Made by a program: the position numbers and the translations under genes. Of a stretch of DNA of 64,000 nucleotides, positions 7,358 to 33,088 are shown one piece after another; the stretch's first letter is position 1; the number at the start of each line of letters is the position of its first letter. The stretch covers positions 114,300 through 178,299 of the forward strand of contig JAHFUM010000002.1 of assembly GCA_023265135.1 (NCBI GenBank), written 5' to 3'. This stretch comes from Nitrosarchaeum sp. (lineage in GTDB: Archaea; Thermoproteota; Nitrososphaeria; Nitrososphaerales; Nitrosopumilaceae). The notes under the pieces were generated by a model that did not search any database, was not told the DNA's origin, and saw nothing but the letters and a program-made list of their open reading frames with translations.

Positions 7358-8413
7358 CTACAATTTTGCTTCTATTACAATGTTGAATGGTGTGCTCGTT
7401 GAAACTCTGAAATTTTTAAAGCCCCCCGTTTTAACCACTTCTTCAAGCCTTTTGGGTCCAGCTTGAGCTCCAAGAGCAGGACCGTTTGAAGCAAGGGAAC
7501 AAGGAACACAAACCATAGTGGATGCGCCATAAAATAAACGCCCGATAGGATTCATGTTGTCTTTTACATCGTCTTTTGCAAAAGGCTCAACCAACATGAG
7601 TGTACCATCATGTTTGAGAATTTTTGAAATATGAGTAACTGTCCCAACAGGATCCGCCATATCATGTAACGCATCAAAAATTGCAACAAGATCGTAATCA
7701 TCTCCAGGAAAATCTGTAGCCATTGCAACTTCAAATTTTACTCGGTCACTCAAACCTTCTTTTTTTACTCTGTTTCTTGCCTCTATAATCGATGGTTCAT
7801 GATAATCAAAACCAATGAACTGTGATTTCGGATATGCTTTTGCCATGATAATAGTTGAAGCCCCATGTCCACAACCAACGTCTGCAACCTTTGCACCCCT
7901 CTTCAATTTTTCTTCCACCCCTTCAAGCGATGGAATCCAAGAACTCGTCAAGTTTGCAAGATATCCTGCGCGAAAAAATCTTTCAGTTCCTTCAAACAAA
8001 TCAGGATCATGGTCTCCCCACTTGACTCCACCACCACTCCTAAAAGCTTCTCTGATTTTTGGCTCATCCTTAAACAAAGACATTGCTATTTGAAACGCAC
8101 CAAGAACACTGCCTGGGCTGTTTTCATCTGCCAAACAAAAGGCTTGTTCTTCACTCAAATGATATTTTCCAGTTTTCTCATCATATGTTACATAACCTCC
8201 AGCGGACTGGTTGTTGAGCCATTCACTCACATATCTTTCTGCAGTTCTGGTTTTTAGTGCAAGTTCAGCAGGAGTAAGAGGACCAGATGCCATCATCTCC
8301 CTATACAAACCAAGTTTGTCACCAATAACAACCATCGGTGCACTGGCAATGGCTCCCATATCATTAACAATTTTTCCGAAAAAGTCCATTAGCTTTTCGT
8401 GGTCTATTGTCAT
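7358..8413 (-). CDS. SAM-dependent methyltransferase with N-terminal winged helix
   Basis: 351 residues. An N-terminal dimerisation/winged-helix part (about 1-95; LTPAELALKTRTAERYVSEWL) precedes a Rossmann methyltransferase domain. That domain has motif I VADVGCGHGAS (about 175-185), a D in GFDYHEPS (motif II), and LVAIFDALHDM (motif IV). This layout is that of the Rv2258c-like and plant O-methyltransferase-like group; the substrate cannot be told. It stands alone on the minus strand between dispersed repeat copies 2 and 3. It could have been acquired from bacteria, since the family is widespread there; this is inference only. Confidence 0.85.
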   Translation of the reverse strand: MTIDHEKLMDFFGKIVNDMGAIASAPMVVIGDKLGLYREMMASGPLTPAELALKTRTAERYVSEWLNNQSAGGYVTYDEKTGKYHLSEEQAFCLADENSPGSVLGAFQIAMSLFKDEPKIREAFRSGGGVKWGDHDPDLFEGTERFFRAGYLANLTSSWIPSLEGVEEKLKRGAKVADVGCGHGASTIIMAKAYPKSQFIGFDYHEPSIIEARNRVKKEGLSDRVKFEVAMATDFPGDDYDLVAIFDALHDMADPVGTVTHISKILKHDGTLMLVEPFAKDDVKDNMNPIGRLFYGASTMVCVPCSLASNGPALGAQAGPKRLEEVVKTGGFKNFRVSTSTPFNIVIEAKL

Positions 8414-8530
8414 GTGTATTATTGTAAGAAGATGTATAAAAAATTCTCCCTGATTTTATTTCGAATTATTGAGGTTATTTGTTTCCCCGCACTTACAAGT
8501 TAGACATAATCTCACCGATTCAATTTTTTA

Positions 8531-8564
8531 TTTTTCTAACCACTATTCCTAAATCCTTAAGTTT
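8531..8564 (+). repeat. Dispersed repeat, copy 3
   Basis: TTTTTCTAACCACTATTCC followed by TAAATCCTTAAGTTT. It lies between the start of the methyltransferase gene and the end of the 8582-8794 gene, on the same strand orientation as the other copies. Confidence 0.6.
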
Positions 8565-8581
8565 CTAAATTCCTTTTGGGA

Positions 8582-8794
8582 CTATTTAGAAAAGAATCCA
8601 ACAATTTTTTTCAATCCAATTCTAGCTGAAATAAGTAACAATACAACTCCAATTATCATTGGCAAAGTCATAGTAAGTAAATTATAGACAGGGTCTTTGG
8701 GCATAACTGAGAATGTCATTAAAGTAGCAGATATTATCAGTATTATTCCAACGACAAACATTATCAAAAGTACTTTGTTTGAGTTAGATACCAT
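8582..8794 (-). CDS. Small membrane protein, two helices, 70 aa
   Basis: Two hydrophobic segments (about 8-28 and 38-60) are joined by a short polar loop containing MPKDPVYN, ending in a positively charged tail (GLKKIVGFFSK). It is an integral membrane protein of unknown role, monocistronic, with repeat copies 3 and 4 on either side. No known family is recognised. Confidence 0.6.
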   Translation of the reverse strand: MVSNSNKVLLIMFVVGIILIISATLMTFSVMPKDPVYNLLTMTLPMIIGVVLLLISARIGLKKIVGFFSK

Positions 8795-8963
8795 ACTAAT
8801 TTCATAAAATATTTGCCATATATGCCAGCTCTTATCATGTGAGAATATTTTACATTTATAGTGCTTAATGTTGTAAATGTTACGTTGAATTGAAATTTAT
8901 CTAACATATTTTAAATTCAATTCTGATTATGGAACCAAACTAAAAGACCGATTCCTTAACATT

Positions 8964-9000
8964 ATTTTCTAAACTCTGTTCCTAAATCCTTAAATTAATA
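8964..9000 (+). repeat. Dispersed repeat, copy 4
   Basis: ATTTTCTAAACTCTGTTCC followed by TAAATCCTTAAATTAATA. This is the fullest copy and lies about 70 bases upstream of the small zinc-protein gene at 9068. Confidence 0.6.
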
Positions 9001-9067
9001 CAAAATTGTTGCCTAAAACAAAACAGCTAAGATTCGCGCTTAAATCTTGACTCTGTAAATCAAGTTA

Positions 9068-12228: not shown

Positions 12229-13245
12229 CTATCCGATTCTTCCTTTCAAAATTATCTTCTCGCTGGTATCTGAAGGTGTTGAGGAATCAATGTATCTAAT
12301 TTCATACCAGTCTCCAATGTCTACAACTTTGCCATCTATCTCCCTAGGAATCTCTATCTTTACTTCAAAGATGCCCGTGTTTGGTCCTGTCTCTGTAAGG
12401 TTGCTTGAATTTGCACTGAATCTTGGATTTGCAAGTGTCGTTCTAATTCCACCCTCTCCCCTGTACTCTAATTTGCTCAAAGATATTGTATCTTCATCTT
12501 TTGAATCCTTGTTTGCATCCGGTTCATACAGCCTAACTACAAACTCGTGTCCAATTCTAGAGCCGCCGCCATACGTCTCCACTTTGGCAAATGATTTTGT
12601 CAAGGGAACTGATTTTGTTATTACCTGTTTGTCCCCAGAGTAATTTGATGCATCCAAATATTTTATTACAACTATATCATTTTGGTCCAGTGGTCTATCA
12701 TTAATCGTATCAGGTAATTCCAATTTTAAATAAAATCTCCCAGTATCTTGACCCGTTTCAACCATACTTGAAGGTCCATCAATTGCAACTCCATTAATTG
12801 AAAATTCAAACAACCCTTCAGTAGATACCGTCTCTATTCCGTTATGAGCCAAATTCAAGTCGTCATCTGTAATATAGAAATTAACTACACTTCCCAATGA
12901 CGCAGGAACCACTTCAATGTTTCCTGAATTTTTCACAGGTGCTTGATTTTTTTCTAAATCTTTAACCGACACATTTGGATTTGTAACTTTGGCAACTATT
13001 ATTTTTCCCAGTCCCATCTTTTCTAATTTGTCTGCAGTTGCAGGTTTTACACATACTGGATTTCCATTATTTCGTATAACTAAACTAAGACCTGCTTTGC
13101 AAGTGATATTTTCTGCTAATATTCCTAGTTTGATCTGTTTTCTTGGAGATTCCCACTCTGCATTTGCAGGATTCGCTACAAGTACTGCCAAAGATAATGT
13201 CAAAAATAATCCAACAAACAATACTTTTTTTAAACAAAAACTCAT
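12229..13245 (-). CDS. Secreted protein with two-cysteine module and two Ig-like domains
   Basis: 338 residues. A signal peptide (about 1-29, cut after ANA) is followed by a module at 34-79 (GILAENITCKAGLSLVIRN ... PVCVKPAT, Cys49 and Cys65). The same module occurs in three other secreted proteins of this window. Two Ig-like domains follow (about 100-215 and 220-338), each with an acidic D-x-D start and a strand ending in ETGxxTGxF (TGQDTGRFYL, ETGPNTGIFEV). This last pattern is frequent in thaumarchaeal surface proteins. There is no C-terminal anchor, so it is probably secreted or held by the S-layer. The function is likely structural or adhesive (inference). Confidence 0.75.
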   Translation of the reverse strand: MSFCLKKVLFVGLFLTLSLAVLVANPANAEWESPRKQIKLGILAENITCKAGLSLVIRNNGNPVCVKPATADKLEKMGLGKIIVAKVTNPNVSVKDLEKNQAPVKNSGNIEVVPASLGSVVNFYITDDDLNLAHNGIETVSTEGLFEFSINGVAIDGPSSMVETGQDTGRFYLKLELPDTINDRPLDQNDIVVIKYLDASNYSGDKQVITKSVPLTKSFAKVETYGGGSRIGHEFVVRLYEPDANKDSKDEDTISLSKLEYRGEGGIRTTLANPRFSANSSNLTETGPNTGIFEVKIEIPREIDGKVVDIGDWYEIRYIDSSTPSDTSEKIILKGRIG

Positions 13246-24453: not shown

Positions 24454-24542
24454 AACTCTCTTTAAAAAAAGGGATATTTAATTCAAAGATAAAATAAAAA
24501 TATATGATAAAATACTAGACAAGATCAAAGACTAATATTTTC

Positions 24543-24638
24543 CTATAATGGCAATTGTATAAAAAACAAGTATAATCCTATCCAAAATCCAATGATTAAT
24601 GCCAGAGACTGCCAGTGTCTGGATAACCATTTTTTCAT
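24543..24638 (-). CDS. Single-helix micro-protein, 31 aa, coupled to the leader array
   Basis: It starts MKKWLSRHWQSLALIIGFW, with a basic N-terminus and one membrane helix ending in IQLPL. Its ATG overlaps the stop of the 24635-25258 gene as ATGA, a hallmark of coupled translation. It closes the minus-strand array of secreted proteins. The size is below usual gene-calling limits. The positive-inside pattern and the overlap make it more than a chance frame. Function unknown. Confidence 0.5.
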   Translation of the reverse strand: MKKWLSRHWQSLALIIGFWIGLYLFFIQLPL

Positions 24639-25258
24639 TTTCTTTTTCTCCAATAGAACATTAACCCAAGAAATGAACCTCCTCCAATTATCATTCCAAC
24701 AATAGCAGGAGTTACAAAAATTGAAGTTCTATCCAACAAAGGCGAAGAAGATCCCGGCGTGTTGGATTCTTGCATTACTGATTTTTTTGCAATCTGTAAT
24801 TTTTCCTCAATGGATTGTGATTCTGTATCTTGATTGGCAATTTCATTCGGGTTTAAATGAATTTCTTGGGGGGTAGAGTATTGTGTTGGATAAGAATCCA
24901 TTTTTAGAATCTTTTTTTCTTGTAAACTAAATAATATGCTAACTGATGTTTCATTGTTTACATTTAATGCAATTATCGGATCACATTTTCCAATATTAGT
25001 ACTACATTCATATCCATTTCCATCAATAAACGAAAATGGTTTTTCGCCTACGATTTTTTGAAACGAATCATCTAAAATTATTATTTTTTTTATTTCATCT
25101 AATGTTTCAACAGATAATGGTTCTGATGGAAACTGACTTGGCATTGTATCATTTCCAACATGTTCATTTGAATTTCCCAGATATTGTGCAAAAACAGATG
25201 ATGTAAACGTTGGAAGTAAAACAAGAGTTCCAATTATGATCAAAAGTCTAGTTTTCAT
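24635..25258 (-). CDS. Secreted, C-terminally anchored protein with shared MKTRLL leader
   Basis: 207 residues. Signal peptide MKTRLLIIIG... (cut near SVFAQ, about 25), a polar domain with two cysteines (CSTNIGKC), an acidic/Gln-rich stalk (about 130-165), one membrane helix (about 178-200) and a basic stop-transfer tail FYWRKRK. It is an extracellular, membrane-held protein. The first 11 bases ATGAAAACTAG contain the TAG stop of the upstream gene, so the two overlap by 11 bases. A member of the leader array at 24.5-30.1 kb. No known domain. Confidence 0.7.
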   Translation of the reverse strand: MKTRLLIIIGTLVLLPTFTSSVFAQYLGNSNEHVGNDTMPSQFPSEPLSVETLDEIKKIIILDDSFQKIVGEKPFSFIDGNGYECSTNIGKCDPIIALNVNNETSVSILFSLQEKKILKMDSYPTQYSTPQEIHLNPNEIANQDTESQSIEEKLQIAKKSVMQESNTPGSSSPLLDRTSIFVTPAIVGMIIGGGSFLGLMFYWRKRK

Positions 25259-25823
25259 TTTTCACACCTGTAGAATTTTTATCAAACGGTATCATGCATC
25301 CATGTAGTGGAAAATCACAAGCGATTCTTATCTCAGTTCCATTATCAAAAGTACCATAACAAATCCAAGGCTTTTCAGTACAAGCGTTCTCAACACGCAT
25401 TTGAGATATGTTTAGATCTTTATGAGATGGAAGTCGTTTTTCCAAAATAACATCCACGCATTCTTGTAATTTCTCCCAAGTTATTCCCTCAGGCAATCCT
25501 ATAGTAGCAATGATATAGTTGCCATCAAATTCTTGGTCAAATAAATTTGAATATTTGTAGAGATGATCAAGTATTTGCTTGTCACAACCAAGATCTTCTA
25601 AATCCTCTAATGGGAAACACCTATCCCGAGTTACAGCACTTTCTTTTTCAACTGAAATTGCCCTATCTATGACAAAACATATTGGATCAGGAATATGTTG
25701 TGATTCAGGATAAAAAACATCAATACCTACGCTATTTTTTGGTGGATTTTGAATTACAAAAGCAGATAGTATGGAAATTCCTACAGCAAATGATGCAATT
25801 AGAATTATTGAACTAGTTTTCAT
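25248..25823 (-). CDS. Secreted protein with MKT leader, cysteine-rich
   Basis: 191 residues from the ATG at 25823; a TTG nine bases earlier is possible. The leader MKTSSIILIASFAVGISIL shares ATGAAAACTAG with the other array genes but then diverges. The mature part contains eight cysteines, including CFVID, RCFPLEDL, ENACTEKPWICYG and CDFPLHGC, which suggests disulfide bonds outside the cell. No C-terminal anchor. It ends KNEN followed by TAG, which lies inside the start of the next gene. No recognised domain. Confidence 0.65.
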   Translation of the reverse strand: MKTSSIILIASFAVGISILSAFVIQNPPKNSVGIDVFYPESQHIPDPICFVIDRAISVEKESAVTRDRCFPLEDLEDLGCDKQILDHLYKYSNLFDQEFDGNYIIATIGLPEGITWEKLQECVDVILEKRLPSHKDLNISQMRVENACTEKPWICYGTFDNGTEIRIACDFPLHGCMIPFDKNSTGVKNEN

Positions 25824-25838
25824 TTTCAGCAAAATAAC

Positions 25839-27497
25839 TCATATCAAACAAGCTCTAATAATTTCTATTTTCTTTGCATTTTCTTGAAATTGAATTAACA
25901 CGATTTGTTTGTCAGTTGTCATGGTTTCATGAAAGTTAACTTCTTCACCATCTACTATAACAAAAAGTGGCATACTTGTCTCGTCATAATTCTTGTTATA
26001 ATTTTTGTCACATTGACCAATTATTGCATCCACAAGAGTTTTTGGAAGTGCAATAGTAAGTTGTCCTGCTTCTGATTTATCTAATGTAATAACAATTGAA
26101 TTTGTATCCACGTTTGAAATTATATTTGATAATTTCGCACCCTCAATAAAATACGGTATCTGGAATGTTCCGTTTTTACCTACATCTAACGTAAACGTTG
26201 ACTCGTTTAATTTGCAGAGACTGTAATCAATTGTAGCATTGCCATAAAGTATTCCTCGTTCCTTAGGAGTCACAATAGAATCATCATCTTTTATTAAAAA
26301 TCCGTATTTGCCAAATCCAAATTTTTCAATTCCGCATTTTAAATCACGATAACCATTGCCACAATGCATACCTTCACAAGTCATATCATGCTTCCCCTCT
26401 TGCCAGTATTCATATGGTTTGAATGTCCATCTTATTTTATCATCAACATGTTTCAATGCTTCCTCTTGTGAAATCTTGTAATTCAAATTCAACATTTTAT
26501 CAACGTCAGATTCTGAAACTAGAAGATACAACGTATAGCGAGCGGAACAAGAGCACGATGCACAGAGAACAACATTCTCACCCACTGAACTTGTTCTTAC
26601 ATCAAAAACTGTTATGCCTTGTTTTTTGTAATAATTTTCTATGGCAATTTTTTCTTCATAAATTATGCCTTCTGCATGCTCACCAATCGGGTATGACGAA
26701 TAATTCCCATCATGTGACTGCACCCAATCCTTTTCCCATGGATTACCCAAACATTGGATTGGATAGGTTTCAACCCAAGTTTTTTCAGACGTATCTTTAG
26801 GAACTGATTCGGATTGTTTTGGAATAATGCCTGCATCTGTTGGACCAGCAATCATCAGAAGCATTGCAAAGCCTCGCTCAATGAGTTTTGCTTTCGATTC
26901 AGGTTTTACACACATTGGACGATGTGTGTGGTCTCTTTTGATTACAATCTCCAGTCCTTCTTTACAAGTAATCTCATCGGGTTGAATTCCGGATTTGGAT
27001 TGTTTTAGTGGTGAAAGAATAAGTTTTTCTTTATTGATTAGAGTTGGTATATTTTCATTTCTAATCTCATGGTCTATACCAAAAATTATTGAATCTGACC
27101 AAAAACTCTTGAGCGGTACATCATGAAGACCCACGCCAACATATGAAATATTTAGAAATATTTTATCATACTCAATATCTGGGTCTACTGTTACAGTAAC
27201 TGGAATTCTTACAATGGAATTTTGATTAACATTCACTGGTTCTGTATCAAAATGCACTTTAGATGTAGCGCCGCGTGGAGTGATATCTGCTATTGCGGTC
27301 ACATTACTGAGCGAATATGCTCCTTCTGTATATTGGAATTTGATCTCAAACTGTGTGGTGGAATTAGGCGATATAGTTACTGGTATTCTTTCAAGGGCCG
27401 TGGTTCCATAAAAGAAATTATCACTTGCACTAAATGCTTGATGAATGATAACACCTGTAAATCCAATCAAAATTAGTAATAAAACAAGATATTTCAT
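25839..27497 (-). CDS. Large secreted protein: two-cysteine module plus C-terminal beta domain
   Basis: 552 residues from the ATG at 27497, where a clean signal peptide begins (MKYLVLLLILIGFTG). A TTG at 27563 would add 22 polar residues and is less likely. Parts: a beta-sandwich (about 28-145, VRIPVTVTVDPD), the two-cysteine module (162-210; LSPLKQSKSG ... TCKEGLEIVIKR ... CVKPESKAKL), and a cysteine-rich central domain (about 240-420) with CASCSCSARY. The C-terminal beta domain (about 435-552) resembles the N-terminal part of the 28882-29976 protein. Extracellular, no anchor. Unknown function; the build is clearly modular. Confidence 0.7.
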   Translation of the reverse strand: MKYLVLLLILIGFTGVIIHQAFSASDNFFYGTTALERIPVTISPNSTTQFEIKFQYTEGAYSLSNVTAIADITPRGATSKVHFDTEPVNVNQNSIVRIPVTVTVDPDIEYDKIFLNISYVGVGLHDVPLKSFWSDSIIFGIDHEIRNENIPTLINKEKLILSPLKQSKSGIQPDEITCKEGLEIVIKRDHTHRPMCVKPESKAKLIERGFAMLLMIAGPTDAGIIPKQSESVPKDTSEKTWVETYPIQCLGNPWEKDWVQSHDGNYSSYPIGEHAEGIIYEEKIAIENYYKKQGITVFDVRTSSVGENVVLCASCSCSARYTLYLLVSESDVDKMLNLNYKISQEEALKHVDDKIRWTFKPYEYWQEGKHDMTCEGMHCGNGYRDLKCGIEKFGFGKYGFLIKDDDSIVTPKERGILYGNATIDYSLCKLNESTFTLDVGKNGTFQIPYFIEGAKLSNIISNVDTNSIVITLDKSEAGQLTIALPKTLVDAIIGQCDKNYNKNYDETSMPLFVIVDGEEVNFHETMTTDKQIVLIQFQENAKKIEIIRACLI

Positions 27498-27568
27498 TAT
27501 TTGATTACATGAATAATACAAAGTTGATAAAGTGTTCTCATCATTATTGTTGGCATTTTCCAATTTAT

Positions 27569-27829
27569 CTAATGTTTTCTTTTGATCATTATAATTAAAG
27601 TCAAAATCAGTGCAATCATTCCAATTATTACTACAGTCATTATCAAAAGAGGAATGTTTAGTTCAACGAGCGGATGACTGTTGTTGACCCCAAATTCATA
27701 TGGAAGATTATTCGGGGCAGTACAAGGCTGAGCATAAAGATCTACACATTTTGCATTCGCAGATGAATTTGATAATATAGAAAAAACAATGACAAAAATT
27801 CCCATAATTACTAAAAGTCTAGTTTTCAT
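27569..27829 (-). CDS. Small membrane-anchored secreted protein with MKTRLL leader, 86 aa
   Basis: The leader MKTRLLVIMGIFVIVFSIL (cut near NSSANA) is followed by about 30 outside residues with two cysteines (KCVDLYAQPC), then one membrane helix (about 57-80) and a basic tail IMIKRKH. The layout is a miniature version of the 24635-25258 protein: the same leader and the same anchor type with almost no domain between. An array member. Confidence 0.65.
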   Translation of the reverse strand: MKTRLLVIMGIFVIVFSILSNSSANAKCVDLYAQPCTAPNNLPYEFGVNNSHPLVELNIPLLIMTVVIIGMIALILTLIIMIKRKH

Positions 27830-27839
27830 TTTATCTCAA

Positions 27840-28871
27840 TCATTGAAGTGACTCTGCCACTTTGATCAACTCGTTCAAAGGAATTCCAGCCTGGAGTGAA
27901 TATTTCACACCATTTTCATCAATGAATTTGATTTTAGTCTCAGCAGAAGTATGCTTTTGGATAACTGTTCCGTCCGTAAAGTTTGCTGTTTGTATACCAC
28001 AATCATTGCATGAATCAACTGCATATGCCAGCATTCCGTTAATTTGGATTAATTGTGGGTGCAATGACGGGTTTTCCACCATTACCCCATCATATGTGTC
28101 CTGAATTCTTTGTGTTGCAGATCCATATATTGCAAATTCTTTTTCACCAACTAATCTTTTTTCATCCGTTTGGAAAATGAAAATTGCGCCATCTGAAATC
28201 AATTCAGGATAATTGGATATCCATCCATCAGGTACTTTTTTGTTATGAAATATCATATAGGATTCATAGGGTGTGCCCGAAAACGAACATTTGAAAGAAT
28301 ATCCATCAGGCAAATAGGAAGGTATTTTGAAAAATGTCGCAGTATCTTTACTTTTTTCTAGTGTCATACACATCACGTTTACCTTAGAGTCAGGTTCTGC
28401 ATTAAATCCATCCTCAGCAATTTCCGATTCACCTAGATCAATATAGAATGGTTCAGGTTGTGAATGTGTTATGCCCTTATCATATTCTGTAACTACTTGT
28501 ACCTTGAGAGATATCTTGTCACCTACATTCCACTTGTTTCCATCAAATATCGGGATTATTCCTGAGTCCTTTGTAGAAAATTGCATATGATCTTGGCTTA
28601 CACAGGAAAATCCACTGCAAATCTTGTATCCTTGTAAAATAGCTGGAACATCTGACCTTATGCTTAATTGGAGATGGGTACCGCAATCATCCGTTTGTAT
28701 AGGGCACATTATTGGTAAGAAATGTGGATCATAAAACACATGTGCTGAAAACCCATATGGATTTTCTTTGGAATATTGCTGATCATCTGAAGATAGTGTA
28801 AAAAATCCAACAGCAATAGCAGAAATAACAGTTATTGTGATTCCAATTATTATCAAAAGTCTAGTTTTCAT
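27840..28871 (-). CDS. Secreted protein with MKTRLL leader, 343 aa
   Basis: Leader MKTRLLIIIGITITVISAI, then an N-terminal beta-type domain (about 35-150) with cysteines (MCPIQTDDCGTH, KICSGFSCVS). A second part (about 165-343) resembles DUF4367/outer-surface lipoprotein-like folds (PSYLPDGYSF ... VNGMLAYAVD-type strand). The likeness of PSYLPDGYSF to that family is from memory and weak. The C-terminal helix has no anchor. An array member, 10 bases from each neighbour. Confidence 0.65.
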   Translation of the reverse strand: MKTRLLIIIGITITVISAIAVGFFTLSSDDQQYSKENPYGFSAHVFYDPHFLPIMCPIQTDDCGTHLQLSIRSDVPAILQGYKICSGFSCVSQDHMQFSTKDSGIIPIFDGNKWNVGDKISLKVQVVTEYDKGITHSQPEPFYIDLGESEIAEDGFNAEPDSKVNVMCMTLEKSKDTATFFKIPSYLPDGYSFKCSFSGTPYESYMIFHNKKVPDGWISNYPELISDGAIFIFQTDEKRLVGEKEFAIYGSATQRIQDTYDGVMVENPSLHPQLIQINGMLAYAVDSCNDCGIQTANFTDGTVIQKHTSAETKIKFIDENGVKYSLQAGIPLNELIKVAESLQ

Positions 28872-28881
28872 TTTCTAATTA

Positions 28882-29976
28882 CTATCTTATCACAAAGTCC
28901 TTTTGAATTATGTCATCACCAAACGTAACAAATAATGTGTAAAATCCTTCTTTGTTAATAATTGGTGTTCCAAAATGTGTATTGTCACCTATCTTCCATT
29001 CTTTGTTGATGTGAGCATTTTTCATGTCAGGATCACATAATGATACAACACCTCCACTTTCCCAAATTTTATCATGATTACTGTCTTCGATTCTTAGTTG
29101 AGGATATCTGCAACCATGCCCTATTCCGTCAAACTTTACTGTAAATTCAATTTTTTGTCCGACACTATATGTTTCGTTTAATCCCTCTACTGTAAGCGAT
29201 GGTTTGAATGTATGATCTTCTCTTGGGATGACAAATCCTTCTTCAGTAATTAGGGGTGGTTCTACTAATCCCTCTTGAAGTAGTTTAGATTTAGTGTGAG
29301 ATTTTACACATATTGGATGTCCGTTATTTTTCTTTATTACAAGCTCTAGTCCCTCTTTACAAGAAACTTGTTGGGATGGAATTCCAGACTTGAACTGCTT
29401 TAGTGGTGAAAGAAAATATGCAAATGGAGGATCATGTGTTCCATTACAGGCATTTTCTCCCATGTGTTCTGGATAGTTTACTCCAATTATCTTAATCTGT
29501 AAGGTTTCGTTTGAGAACGGTATTATTAAAACTCTTAATTTTTCACCTGCAATATCTGAGTGCTGTGTTTCCTTTGAATTCAACAATACAAGGAAATTGT
29601 CATCTTTATTCCCACTCATCTTTGAATCAATAAGATGTCGTGGAAGTGCCAATGTGATCCAACCTTGTTTTGTAGTTGGAGCAATATCCAGGACTAGTTC
29701 TGTGTTGTCACAATCGATACTAATTTCAGAAACAGTTCCATTTGAAATGATATATGGCACATTATAGCGATAGTTGCCTGCGATTACAGAATATTTTTCA
29801 AACTCTGGATTAGAATAGTAAAAATCAGCATATGAATGAGGGAAAACATCTTTTCCAGTTTCAGCATCATACATTGTGTTTGGAGGAAGTTTGTCACCCA
29901 AGTATTGCCCATATGCAGTTCCAACAAGTCCCAAGGTAAGAGAAAATCCAATTAATATCAATAATCTAGTTTTCAT
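28882..29976 (-). CDS. Secreted protein with MKTRLL leader, beta domain and two-cysteine module
   Basis: 364 residues from the ATG at 29976; the longer frame to 30108 lacks a leader and is rejected. Signal peptide 1-23 (cut after AYG), then a beta domain (about 70-165: YNVPYIISNG ... WITLALPRHLID) matching the C-terminus of the 25839-27497 protein. The two-cysteine module follows (190-238: SPLKQFKSG ... SCKEGLELVIKK ... CVKSHTKSKL), then an Ig-like domain (about 255-364). A GGAG ribosome site precedes the ATG, which also overlaps the stop of a micro-protein gene as ATGA. First large gene of the array. Confidence 0.72.
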   Translation of the reverse strand: MKTRLLILIGFSLTLGLVGTAYGQYLGDKLPPNTMYDAETGKDVFPHSYADFYYSNPEFEKYSVIAGNYRYNVPYIISNGTVSEISIDCDNTELVLDIAPTTKQGWITLALPRHLIDSKMSGNKDDNFLVLLNSKETQHSDIAGEKLRVLIIPFSNETLQIKIIGVNYPEHMGENACNGTHDPPFAYFLSPLKQFKSGIPSQQVSCKEGLELVIKKNNGHPICVKSHTKSKLLQEGLVEPPLITEEGFVIPREDHTFKPSLTVEGLNETYSVGQKIEFTVKFDGIGHGCRYPQLRIEDSNHDKIWESGGVVSLCDPDMKNAHINKEWKIGDNTHFGTPIINKEGFYTLFVTFGDDIIQKDFVIR

Positions 29977-30053
29977 TTTCTCCAAACCACATAACCTGTA
30001 CCCAAAACTAATAATGCAAATCCAACAACACCCAATACCCACATGACAGACAT
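29973..30053 (-). CDS. Single-helix micro-protein or anchor remnant, 26 aa
   Basis: The frame starts MSVMWVLGVVG, is one membrane helix, and ends YVVWRK followed by TGA inside the ATGA overlap with the next gene. The tail resembles the FYWRKRK anchor of the 24635-25258 protein. It may be an independent micro-protein that leads the array, or the last helix of a decayed larger gene. The open frame extends only about ten codons upstream of this ATG. Confidence 0.4.
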   Translation of the reverse strand: MSVMWVLGVVGFALLVLGTGYVVWRK

Positions 30054-30204
30054 AAAATGGGCAGATAGTTCGGCTATTTGGCATTACTGGAGCGCTGGAA
30101 CTCCTCAAGTCAATTCACCATTTTGGGCGAAGCTTAACTGTAGTCCTAGTTATAGACACATACATGCAGGAACTACAGGTTCAGCAACATGTGCAGAATA
30201 CTAG
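30043..30204 (+). pseudogene. Possible 3' remnant of a secreted-protein gene
   Basis: A 53-residue frame rich in Trp, His and Ser (AIWHYWSAGTPQVNSPFW) with two cysteines near the end (LNCSPSYRH ... SATCAEY). The composition reads like the C-terminal part of a folded secreted domain, yet no signal peptide precedes it. A stop lies 18 codons upstream and no promoter is evident. It sits at the upstream border of the minus-strand array. It could be chance; confidence is low. Confidence 0.3.
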
Positions 30205-30218
30205 GAGATTGAACTGAC

Positions 30219-30872
30219 ATGAAAAACAAAAACTTGGGAATCATCACAGCTTTGATGACCATTGCAGTTATTGGTGGATTTGTTATTTCATATCAAGTAT
30301 TCCAACCAGAAACAACTCCAACAATAACCACGAAAATAGATACAGCTAATTTTGAAAAGTCACAAATGCGTGGATTAGGTGATCTGTATTTACTTGATTA
30401 TGGGAATGAAATTTCTGCTGATGCAGCAAGAACTATGACGGGCTTTACAAAAGCTTCTACTCCTTCTATGGTTATTGAAAATTTGGCGCTAAAATCTGTC
30501 AGAGTTCGAGACTATGCAGAATCTCATATGATGACAGCTTTTTACGTTCCATCAATCATCATGTTACAGGATCTTGATACATTTGAAAGTGTGATGAACA
30601 ATAAAGGAATAATTGTAATCTTCACAGAAGAAAAACAATCTTCAACATATGACTCACAAAAGTGGCGAGAAGAATTTGTTAAGGCAGCACCACAAGTAAG
30701 AAAATCCGATACCATAAATGGTTATCCGACAATTGTAATAACTGGAAATCCTGACAAAGATATCAAATCTGAGGTTCTTGTCTACAAAGACAATTTACAG
30801 ATAGACATTGTGTCAGTGAAACATAATGTTAATGAATTAGTAGGGATTGCGCAATTAATTACCAGAGGATAA
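30219..30872 (+). CDS. Secreted or lipid/membrane-anchored hypothetical protein, 217 aa
   Basis: One N-terminal hydrophobic helix (about 7-27) works as signal anchor, followed by a Thr/Pro spacer (ETTPTITTK) and a folded alpha/beta domain of about 180 residues with no cysteines. The domain contains EEKQSSTYDSQKWREEF and ends in a helix. It would face outside. The family is not recognised. It diverges from the array and is 177 bases upstream of the serpin gene on the same strand. Confidence 0.65.
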   Translation: MKNKNLGIITALMTIAVIGGFVISYQVFQPETTPTITTKIDTANFEKSQMRGLGDLYLLDYGNEISADAARTMTGFTKASTPSMVIENLALKSVRVRDYAESHMMTAFYVPSIIMLQDLDTFESVMNNKGIIVIFTEEKQSSTYDSQKWREEFVKAAPQVRKSDTINGYPTIVITGNPDKDIKSEVLVYKDNLQIDIVSVKHNVNELVGIAQLITRG

Positions 30873-31049
30873 CTCCTTTTTTCTTTTGTTATGTTGCATT
30901 GTCTATAGTATTAACTCTTAATTTTCAGCAAACCCATCTTTAAAACACTTGAAAAGCAATTTAATTTGAAACAATTTTTTCATTCTAAGAATAACTAGAA
31001 TTGATGCTTTTGTAGAACTCCTTATAGTCTCATCGAATGTATTTTAATT

Positions 31050-32861
31050 ATGAGATATTTTTTTGTAGTTGTCACATATGCGGTTGTATTCTTTGGTTTT
31101 GCAACACAGGCTGATGTTTTTGCATCAGTTTCATTAGATTCGAAATCTATCTATGGAGAAAGTTACCAAGTTGCGAAAATCTATTTCGATAAACCACAAT
31201 ACGGCGACATGAACAATGAGACACAAGCAAAGATTCGACTAATAGAGCCAGACAACAATGTTGATTCTAATAGCATTGACAATACATCTGTACTAATATT
31301 TTCAGACTCTGATCCACAAGGACAATCTGTATCTGTAATAGAAACAGGAAAGAACACAGGAATCTTTGAGGGGAACATAAAACTAACTTTTGATAAAACT
31401 ACAGAGGAACAAATCTATGTAAGTGATGGAGATACAGTGACGGCCGAATTTGTTGATCTGACTTTGCCTTTTAGCTATAAAGGCCAAAAAGAGATTACGG
31501 TCACTGCATTTATTGAGAAAATAGGTTCATCAGTTAAGCGAGTCTCGATTCCATATGATTCACCATTGAAGCAATTCCATTCTGGAATCTTAACTAAAGA
31601 GATTCAATGTAAAGATGGATTGGAGCTTGCAATAAAAAGAAGCAACAGTTCTCCTGCATGTGTAACGCATAGCACTCTTGAGATTCTTAAACAACGAGGA
31701 TGGATTGCAAATTCAACATCAAACTATACCAAACCAATAATCAATCCACCTGAAATTAGAAAGCCTGCAAAAAATATCGTTGATTCAACTAATCAATTCA
31801 TGCTTGACTATTATTCCACAACTAACACCAAAGATGATAATTTTTTTTTCTCCCCATGGAGCATATTAAGCGCATTTTCTGTTCTTTATGAGGGAGCAGA
31901 GGGACAAACTGCAGATGAAATAGCAGGCATATTTTATTTGCCTAAAGATGATTCAGAAAGAAGAGACTCATTTGGAACAATGCAAAACAACCTCAATGTA
32001 AATGGCTCAGGATATGAGCTCAGAAACGCAAATGCATTGTGGATAAAACATGGATTTGATGTAAAAGATGAATTTGTAAATATGTCAAAACAATACTATG
32101 ACAGCAAAGTATCAGAGGTTAATTTTCCTGCAGATGAATCAATTGTTGACTCTTGGGTTGAAAACCAAACAAACAACAAGATAAAGGATCTAATAAAAGG
32201 AAAGACAGATGGAGGGACAGAATTAGTAATTACAAATGCCATCTACTTTAAGGGAACATGGCAGACTCAGTTTGAATCAAAAAATACAAAAGATAGACCT
32301 TTTCATGTGACTTCAGACAAGTCAGTTTCAGTACCCATGATGAACACACAATCAAAGTTTGCTTATGCAGAAACTGATGATCTGCAGATAATATCCATGC
32401 CATACAAGGGACAAAAAATCTCAATGTCAGTGTTGCTTCCAAAGAATAATCTTGAATCCCTAGAAAAATCAATCACAGTACAAAAACTAGAAGATTGGAA
32501 AAAAAGCCTACGTGAACAAGATGTGATATTGTCTCTTCCAAAATTCAAGCTAGAAACAGAATATGACTTGGCAAAAATAATGCCCAAGATGGGAATTAAA
32601 TTAGCTTTTGATCCTGAGAATGCGGATTTGTCGGGAATATCAGACTTGAAAGGACTGTTCGTACAATCTGCAATTCACAAAGCGTTTGTTGACGTAAATG
32701 AAGAGGGGACAGAGGCGGCCGCTACAACGACTGTTAGTAGTGGATTAACAGGTGAAACATCACCAATGTTTAGGGCAGATCATCCATTTGTATTTTTGAT
32801 ACAGGATAATGAAACTGGATTAATCTTGTTTATGGGCAAGGTATCTGATCCTACTAAATAG
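31050..32861 (+). CDS. Secreted serpin with N-terminal Ig-like domain and two-cysteine module
   Basis: 603 residues. Signal peptide 1-25; Ig-like domain about 30-160 with ETGKNTGIFEG; two-cysteine module 171-218 (SPLKQFHSG, Cys187, Cys204); complete serpin domain about 240-603. Serpin signatures include FFFSPWSILSAFSVLYEGA, NAIYFKGTWQTQF and ADHPFVFLI. The hinge NEEGTEAAATT (550-560) fits the inhibitory consensus. Counting 17 residues from Glu551 puts the scissile bond near Thr567-Gly568, after Leu566, suggesting an elastase/subtilisin/chymotrypsin-like target. It is a suicide inhibitor that would act outside the cell, perhaps against proteases of neighbours or the cell's own. Confidence 0.9.
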   Translation: MRYFFVVVTYAVVFFGFATQADVFASVSLDSKSIYGESYQVAKIYFDKPQYGDMNNETQAKIRLIEPDNNVDSNSIDNTSVLIFSDSDPQGQSVSVIETGKNTGIFEGNIKLTFDKTTEEQIYVSDGDTVTAEFVDLTLPFSYKGQKEITVTAFIEKIGSSVKRVSIPYDSPLKQFHSGILTKEIQCKDGLELAIKRSNSSPACVTHSTLEILKQRGWIANSTSNYTKPIINPPEIRKPAKNIVDSTNQFMLDYYSTTNTKDDNFFFSPWSILSAFSVLYEGAEGQTADEIAGIFYLPKDDSERRDSFGTMQNNLNVNGSGYELRNANALWIKHGFDVKDEFVNMSKQYYDSKVSEVNFPADESIVDSWVENQTNNKIKDLIKGKTDGGTELVITNAIYFKGTWQTQFESKNTKDRPFHVTSDKSVSVPMMNTQSKFAYAETDDLQIISMPYKGQKISMSVLLPKNNLESLEKSITVQKLEDWKKSLREQDVILSLPKFKLETEYDLAKIMPKMGIKLAFDPENADLSGISDLKGLFVQSAIHKAFVDVNEEGTEAAATTTVSSGLTGETSPMFRADHPFVFLIQDNETGLILFMGKVSDPTK

Positions 32862-33088
32862 AAATTATCACTTTTTTTTATGGTATTCTTTTCGGACCCA
32901 CTAAAGCCAGATCCTTATAGTTACAGAAGGAAATTAGTGCAAAATCTAATCACCTAACTATATTCCCCGCGCGTTATGCGAGCAGTCAAATTTGAACCCC
33001 AATATACAAAATCAAAAAAATTATTGAATTTTGAGCAAAAATCCCTCAACTACGCAACGGTTTTCTAATTCACAGATCTTTAAAACGC

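Follow-up and report, generated by a model that had tools for sequence, protein, structure and literature searches.

A putatively secreted inhibitory-type serpin with an S-layer-type Ig domain and a WING-49 domain in an ammonia-oxidising archaeon

Serpins of the ammonia-oxidising archaeal lineage have already been published, mostly from sponge symbionts. The available portions of two papers describe them from the sponge-associated Ca. Nitrosospongia ianthellae and Cenarchaeum symbiosum and from the soil species Nitrosotenuis chungbukensis; the first paper (PMC6790972) names N. chungbukensis as the sole species with a serpin that is not host-associated, and the account in the second (PMC7848895) agrees. 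Ca. N. ianthellae is credited with 15 serpins, nine of them predicted to be extracellular, and the genes frequently, but not universally, lie next to genes for S8 proteases (PMC6790972, available portion). These serpins are of the same family and archaeal lineage as the one reported here, which has no S8 gene beside it. No S-layer-type or WING-49 domain is described for the sponge and soil serpins in those portions, whereas the present serpin has both. Among the hyperthermophilic archaea, Tk-serpin and Pnserpin are inhibitory and are reported to act on endogenous subtilisin-like or chymotrypsin-like proteases (PMC8233489, an account of serpins in general, available portion). They resemble the present protein as archaeal inhibitory serpins, a likeness drawn from their description only. 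We know of no S-layer-type or WING-49 domain in either. The S-layer protein of Nitrosopumilus maritimus, Nmar_1547 (1734 residues), forms a structural array and has ten Ig-like domains, with no serpin described in the available portion of the report; its ninth Ig-like domain was modelled to residue 1616, with disordered density beyond, in the pseudoperiplasmic space (PMC11153153).

The window analysed here, the whole stretch of 64,000 nucleotides from a Nitrosarchaeum sp. contig, contains an intact serpin gene, an observation far beyond chance (Table 1). The serpin is a new member of a known family, and what is apparently new is the order of S-layer domain, WING-49 and serpin. Among the titles and abstract openings listed from the open literature on archaeal serpins, S-layers and Kunitz domains, none describes this order, which may be in print elsewhere.

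Table 1. Positions in the window of the serpin gene, its parts and the neighbouring features.
Feature	Position	Strand	Basis
Variable segment with serpin and neighbour genes	24491..33066		relative G339 has a clean empty site
Protein combining one WING-49 domain with two Ig domains of the S-layer type	12229..13245	-	profile; outside the variable segment
Neighbouring WING-49 protein, 574 aa	25839..27563	-	WING-49 profile
Neighbouring WING-49 protein, called at 408 aa (probably with an internal true start)	28882..30108	-	NF058652
Serpin gene	31050..32861	+	complete ORF of 603 aa from ATG to stop
Signal peptide, residues 1-25 (putative cleavage A25/S26)	31050..31124	+	sequence read by eye, hydropathy
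Ig-like domain, residues 59-150	31224..31499	+	homology to Nitrosopumilus S-layer protein Ig domain 9
WING-49 domain, residues 172-219, Cys187 and Cys204	31563..31706	+	NF058652
Serpin domain, residues 246-601	31785..32852	+	PF00079 profile and predicted model
Reactive-loop hinge P17-P9, EEGTEAAAT, residues 551-559	32700..32726	+	sequence
Predicted P1-P1' bond, Thr567-Gly568	32748..32753	+	17-residue count

The serpin domain matched PF00079 (MEROPS I4) with an E-value of 4.9e-119 (398.3 bits against a cut-off of 27) and is complete, covering positions 2-370 of the 370 in the profile. Its hinge has Gly at P15, Thr at P14 and Ala at P12-P10, in agreement with the inhibitory consensus, given as ExGTEAAAA in the available portion of PMC8233489. 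A sequence-only reading had recognised this hinge and had ended the reactive loop around Leu566-Thr567-Gly568; these positions are right, since the 17-residue count places the three residues at P2, P1 and P1'. The stretch between P17 and the Pro-Phe that follows the loop is 30 residues long, and the loop region is presumably one residue longer than that of alpha-1-antitrypsin. At the other end of the protein, Val-Phe-Ala precedes Ser26, by eye a cleavable-looking signal peptide with its hydropathy peak at residues 4-18, and the hydropathy plot of the serpin protein has no strong hydrophobic stretch after it. The same reading had proposed that this ammonia oxidiser has a secreted serpin of the inhibitory type to which further domains are fused, and as far as sequence tells this is correct.

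The best PDB sequence match of the 603-aa protein was conserpin (5cdx), which we take to be a designed consensus protein. It matched the serpin domain only, sharing the serpin fold and the hinge, and in the alignment has Arg-Ser at the centre of the loop in contrast to the Thr-Gly of the present protein. In an AlphaFold model made with 38 sequences, the serpin and WING-49 parts were confident and the Ig part was of low confidence; 348 residues across the whole protein had a pLDDT of at least 90, and loop residues 555-566 fell below 50. Foldseek searches against the PDB gave TM scores by target length of 0.75 to 0.91 among the 50 matches listed, all of which we take, by title or general knowledge, to be serpins.

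The Ig-like domain aligned over 94 of its residues with residues 1517-1611 of PDB entry 8c8k (E 3.8e-19), a chain of 1734 residues titled "cell surface protein". From its length, title and general knowledge we take 8c8k to be the Nmar_1547 S-layer protein, so that the homologue of the serpin's Ig-like domain is Ig domain 9 of the N. maritimus S-layer protein. The same Ig domain is present in the organism's own S-layer protein, a 1681-aa open frame (40% identity, E 3.1e-18), and in three further proteins of the genome besides the S-layer protein and the serpin; a profile added the protein at 12229-13245 of the window to the carriers. The serpin ORF has one such domain and lacks an S-layer-style tandem array. 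Homology to an S-layer domain does not by itself show S-layer binding; the domain is found in other proteins of this genome too.

The two-cysteine domain was identified as NCBIfam family NF058652, WING-49 (72.3 bits, cut-off 22). Both added domains of the sequence-only reading are thus real homologous domains, although it had missed that the Ig-like one belongs to the S-layer protein and that the two-cysteine one is the lineage-specific WING-49. There were 18 WING-49 matches in the present genome, four of which (L015, L016, L018 and L019) were scanned only within a pooled Pfam tally. Across the phylum, sampled as genomes with a completeness of at least 80%, WING-49 was found in 46 of 299 genomes, all 46 from the same family as the present one, and three other listed members of that family were without it. 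None of 14 control genomes had a match. Both cysteines were invariant in 50 aligned copies of the 62 collected, the other 12 segments having been left out before the domain alignment (3 of 77 WING-49 ORFs were likewise left out before the ORF alignment), and the pair may form a disulfide. A 67-residue model of WING-49 alone had a mean pLDDT of 83.9 and only two VIA-align matches (Z 2.2 and 2.0), too weak to point to a structural relative, and a sequence search of the PDB for the domain gave no match up to an E-value of 1. In ten proteins of the genome, WING-49 was fused to a dienelactone-hydrolase-like domain, to a beta-propeller or to regions without a Pfam match, and it is therefore not specific for inhibitors. 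The Pfam tally of 74 WING-49 proteins, 16 with a serpin and 4 with a Kunitz domain, is a biased sample because many of the loci were fetched for holding serpins. Chance figures for WING-49 are rough, as they take the domain to occur independently and in about 1% of genes.

Homology between the window and the relative G339 (contig L123) runs to position 24490 and resumes at 33066. The present genome thus has about 8.6 kb that G339 lacks, and this DNA includes two WING-49 genes and others besides the serpin. In another relative (G225, contig L122) homology was lost at the same base, 24490, and the gap held other genes. From these alignments the serpin gene is read as an accessory gene on exchangeable DNA. 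The list of repeats showed no conspicuous terminal pair of the kind that bounds an integrated element, and the GC content of the gene (35.8%) is close to that of the window (35.3%). A 54-nt repeat was observed in four copies (25208-25261, 27779-27832, 28821-28874 and 29926-29979), 63-78% identical to the reference copy. On the minus strand these repeats read like signal peptide starts of the MKTRLL type; three lie at or in listed genes and the copy at 27779 is intergenic.

Within the order, a serpin match was found in 31 of 400 sampled genomes (30 over the cut-off). The proposal that archaeal serpins are rare is consequently only partly upheld, given also the published ammonia-oxidiser serpins in the available portions of PMC6790972 and PMC7848895. 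At the genus level the present genome was the only one of the 17 listed to have a serpin: no serpin match was found in the 16 genus mates searched, 11 of which were at least 90% complete. A first scan of genome contigs with the full-length protein as query detected no relative. The fetched loci contained 50 distinct serpin-like ORFs, in 42 of which the serpin match spanned at least 320 residues. WING-49 was present in 15 of these 42 and absent from 27, and contig ends may hide further copies among them. An S-layer-type Ig domain was found in only two of the 42, the present serpin and L052 (genome G238, from another lineage), and both also have WING-49; the remaining 40 lack the Ig domain. In L052 the order is again Ig, WING-49 and serpin. 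The relatives with WING-49 beside or in their serpins include a record that its title assigns to groundwater (L178), so such inhibitors occur outside sponge hosts as well. Some serpin ORFs of relatives were in pieces or truncated (L090:5106-6833, plus strand, and the L206-type fragments L089 and L080) and could be either decaying copies or assembly errors.

A quick tree was made of 119 serpins, 41 from genomes of the same family, one from a groundwater thaumarchaeon and 77 others. L090, whose serpin match is in two pieces, was left out of the alignment and tree, yet is counted among the 42 above, and L164 and L172 were left out as repeats of G150 and G268. The present serpin paired with L066 (genome G192) with a support of 100. 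L066 consists of WING-49 and a serpin, is 69% identical over the serpin domain, the nearest sequence, and has Thr-Ser where the present serpin has its predicted P1-P1' residues; the GC content of its locus is 42.7%. L052 was placed elsewhere and did not pair with the present serpin. The Ig domains of the present serpin and L052 are respectively 41% and 48% identical to domain 9 of their own S-layer proteins and 39% identical to each other, which fits two separate captures of the domain without showing them. Presence of WING-49 as a label required eight changes on the tree, at least six of them forced by well-supported branches. The 77 other serpins fell on one side of a branch with a support of only 60, and for that reason monophyly of the family's serpins is not claimed. 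Glu, Asp, Gln or Thr followed by Ser was read at P1-P1' in 28 of 40 serpins of the family against 12 of 78 others, counts that come from related sequences and from a comparison set picked for its similarity to the query. Where both a 16- and a 17-residue count were possible, the rule leaned towards Ser; the pattern misread L145 at least, and L087 was omitted as no hinge was found. A family loop chemistry of an acidic residue, Gln or Thr followed by Ser is thus possibly indicated, as a lead only; the present serpin, with Thr-Gly, falls outside the 28.

Two further kinds of serpin were observed. L053 (8097-10664, minus strand) and L056 (317-2911, minus strand) combine an NHL beta-propeller with a serpin, lack WING-49, have by eye an N-terminal hydrophobic stretch, and sit close to the groundwater record in the tree. 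Six viral contigs (L222-L227) encode serpins with 30-38% identity to the present one; viral carriage was considered and set aside, as these are not close to the present serpin.

WING-49 was also found with an inhibitor of a different fold. L057 (genome G194, 7519-9045, plus strand) joins WING-49, a Kunitz/BPTI domain and a serpin in one archaeal protein. Its Kunitz domain has, by eye, six cysteines and Arg at the P1 position, making the protein a predicted double-headed inhibitor. A Kunitz search of 400 genomes found six, of which five were credible. The match in G104, which has in-frame stops and belongs to another family, was dropped. In four of the five credible Kunitz genomes (including those of L216, L218 and L220) WING-49 lies in the same ORF as the Kunitz domain. 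For the fifth (L219), the locus coordinates place a WING-49 ORF some 50 nt upstream; it shares the strand and seems to be in a different frame. In L220 there is, in addition, a zinc-peptidase match that falls short of its cut-off.

The present genome encodes three S8 proteases, all on contigs other than that of the serpin, and a location of the serpin beside its target protease was accordingly rejected. Downstream of the organism's S-layer gene come first a 330-aa open frame and then a 1271-aa subtilase (L126:1-8110), both of which have hydrophobic C-terminal ends by eye. Subtilases were found in 16 of 17 genus mates, a count that includes G400, which was absent from the serpin search; the one without is a 61% complete genome. 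Throughout the genus, subtilases are found repeatedly with open frames of around 685 and around 1280 residues. Around the other serpins, S8 ORFs were detected in only two loci, L062 and L087, by phmmer with the three S8 proteins of this genome at 1e-6, an insensitive search on several short contigs that does not contradict the published S8 adjacency.

We infer export, retention at the S-layer, protease inhibition and the target of the serpin from sequence. The reading we prefer, to which we give an even chance, is that of an inhibitory serpin held at the S-layer and likely shielding surface proteins from the proteases of other organisms. The secreted serpin would stay at the surface of the archaeon, positioned in or under the S-layer by its S-layer-type Ig and WING-49 domains. 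The serpin domain would offer its loop as bait, and a serine (possibly cysteine) protease cutting near Thr567 would become covalently trapped during insertion of the loop into sheet A, each inhibitor molecule serving for a single event. Its likely role would be to shield the S-layer and the membrane enzymes from proteases released by other organisms. Free secretion, in which the Ig and WING-49 domains would be only spacers or stabilisers, agrees with the lack of a strong hydrophobic stretch after the signal peptide and with the 27 full-length serpins that have no WING-49. We nevertheless consider it unlikely, as an Ig domain of the S-layer protein and a domain that recurs in many proteins of the family suit retention better than release. 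Loss of inhibition, with the protein now serving some other purpose, is very improbable: the presumed additional loop residue relative to alpha-1-antitrypsin would speak for it, but the hinge agrees with the inhibitory consensus and the loop is unstructured in the model.

A serious rival, possible if somewhat doubtful, is that the serpin controls the organism's own secreted or membrane-anchored subtilases, for example the 1271-aa one. It has to be taken seriously because this subtilase is encoded two genes after the S-layer gene and because there are published precedents. The sponge-symbiont serpins often adjoin subtilase genes (PMC6790972, available portion), an arrangement that speaks for control of the organism's own proteases in those symbionts, and Tk-serpin is a reported precedent in Thermococcus. 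However, the contig of the present serpin has no S8 gene, and subtilases recur across the genus while the 16 mates searched have no serpin match. This distribution, together with the accessory nature of the gene, whose variable segment has a clean empty site in a relative, modestly favours an outside protease as the target over the organism's own subtilases. Both roles put forward by the sequence-only reading, defence against the proteases of neighbours and control of its own surface proteases, remain, with a modest preference for the former.

The most useful lead from this analysis is that WING-49 is repeatedly fused to inhibitors of two unrelated folds, which gives a first functional clue for a domain common in the family. 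We tentatively suggest that WING-49 and the S-layer-type Ig domain may be envelope docks, by which Nitrosopumilaceae would display inhibitors of unrelated folds (serpin, Kunitz, or the two combined in a single chain) on the S-layer or within it. Ammonia-oxidising archaea are very abundant, and to our knowledge it is not known how they protect their protein coat from proteases. A serpin that carries the S-layer's own domain is a concrete candidate for such protection. If the suggestion is true, envelope docks would provide an exchangeable coat of inhibitors guarding the pseudoperiplasm.
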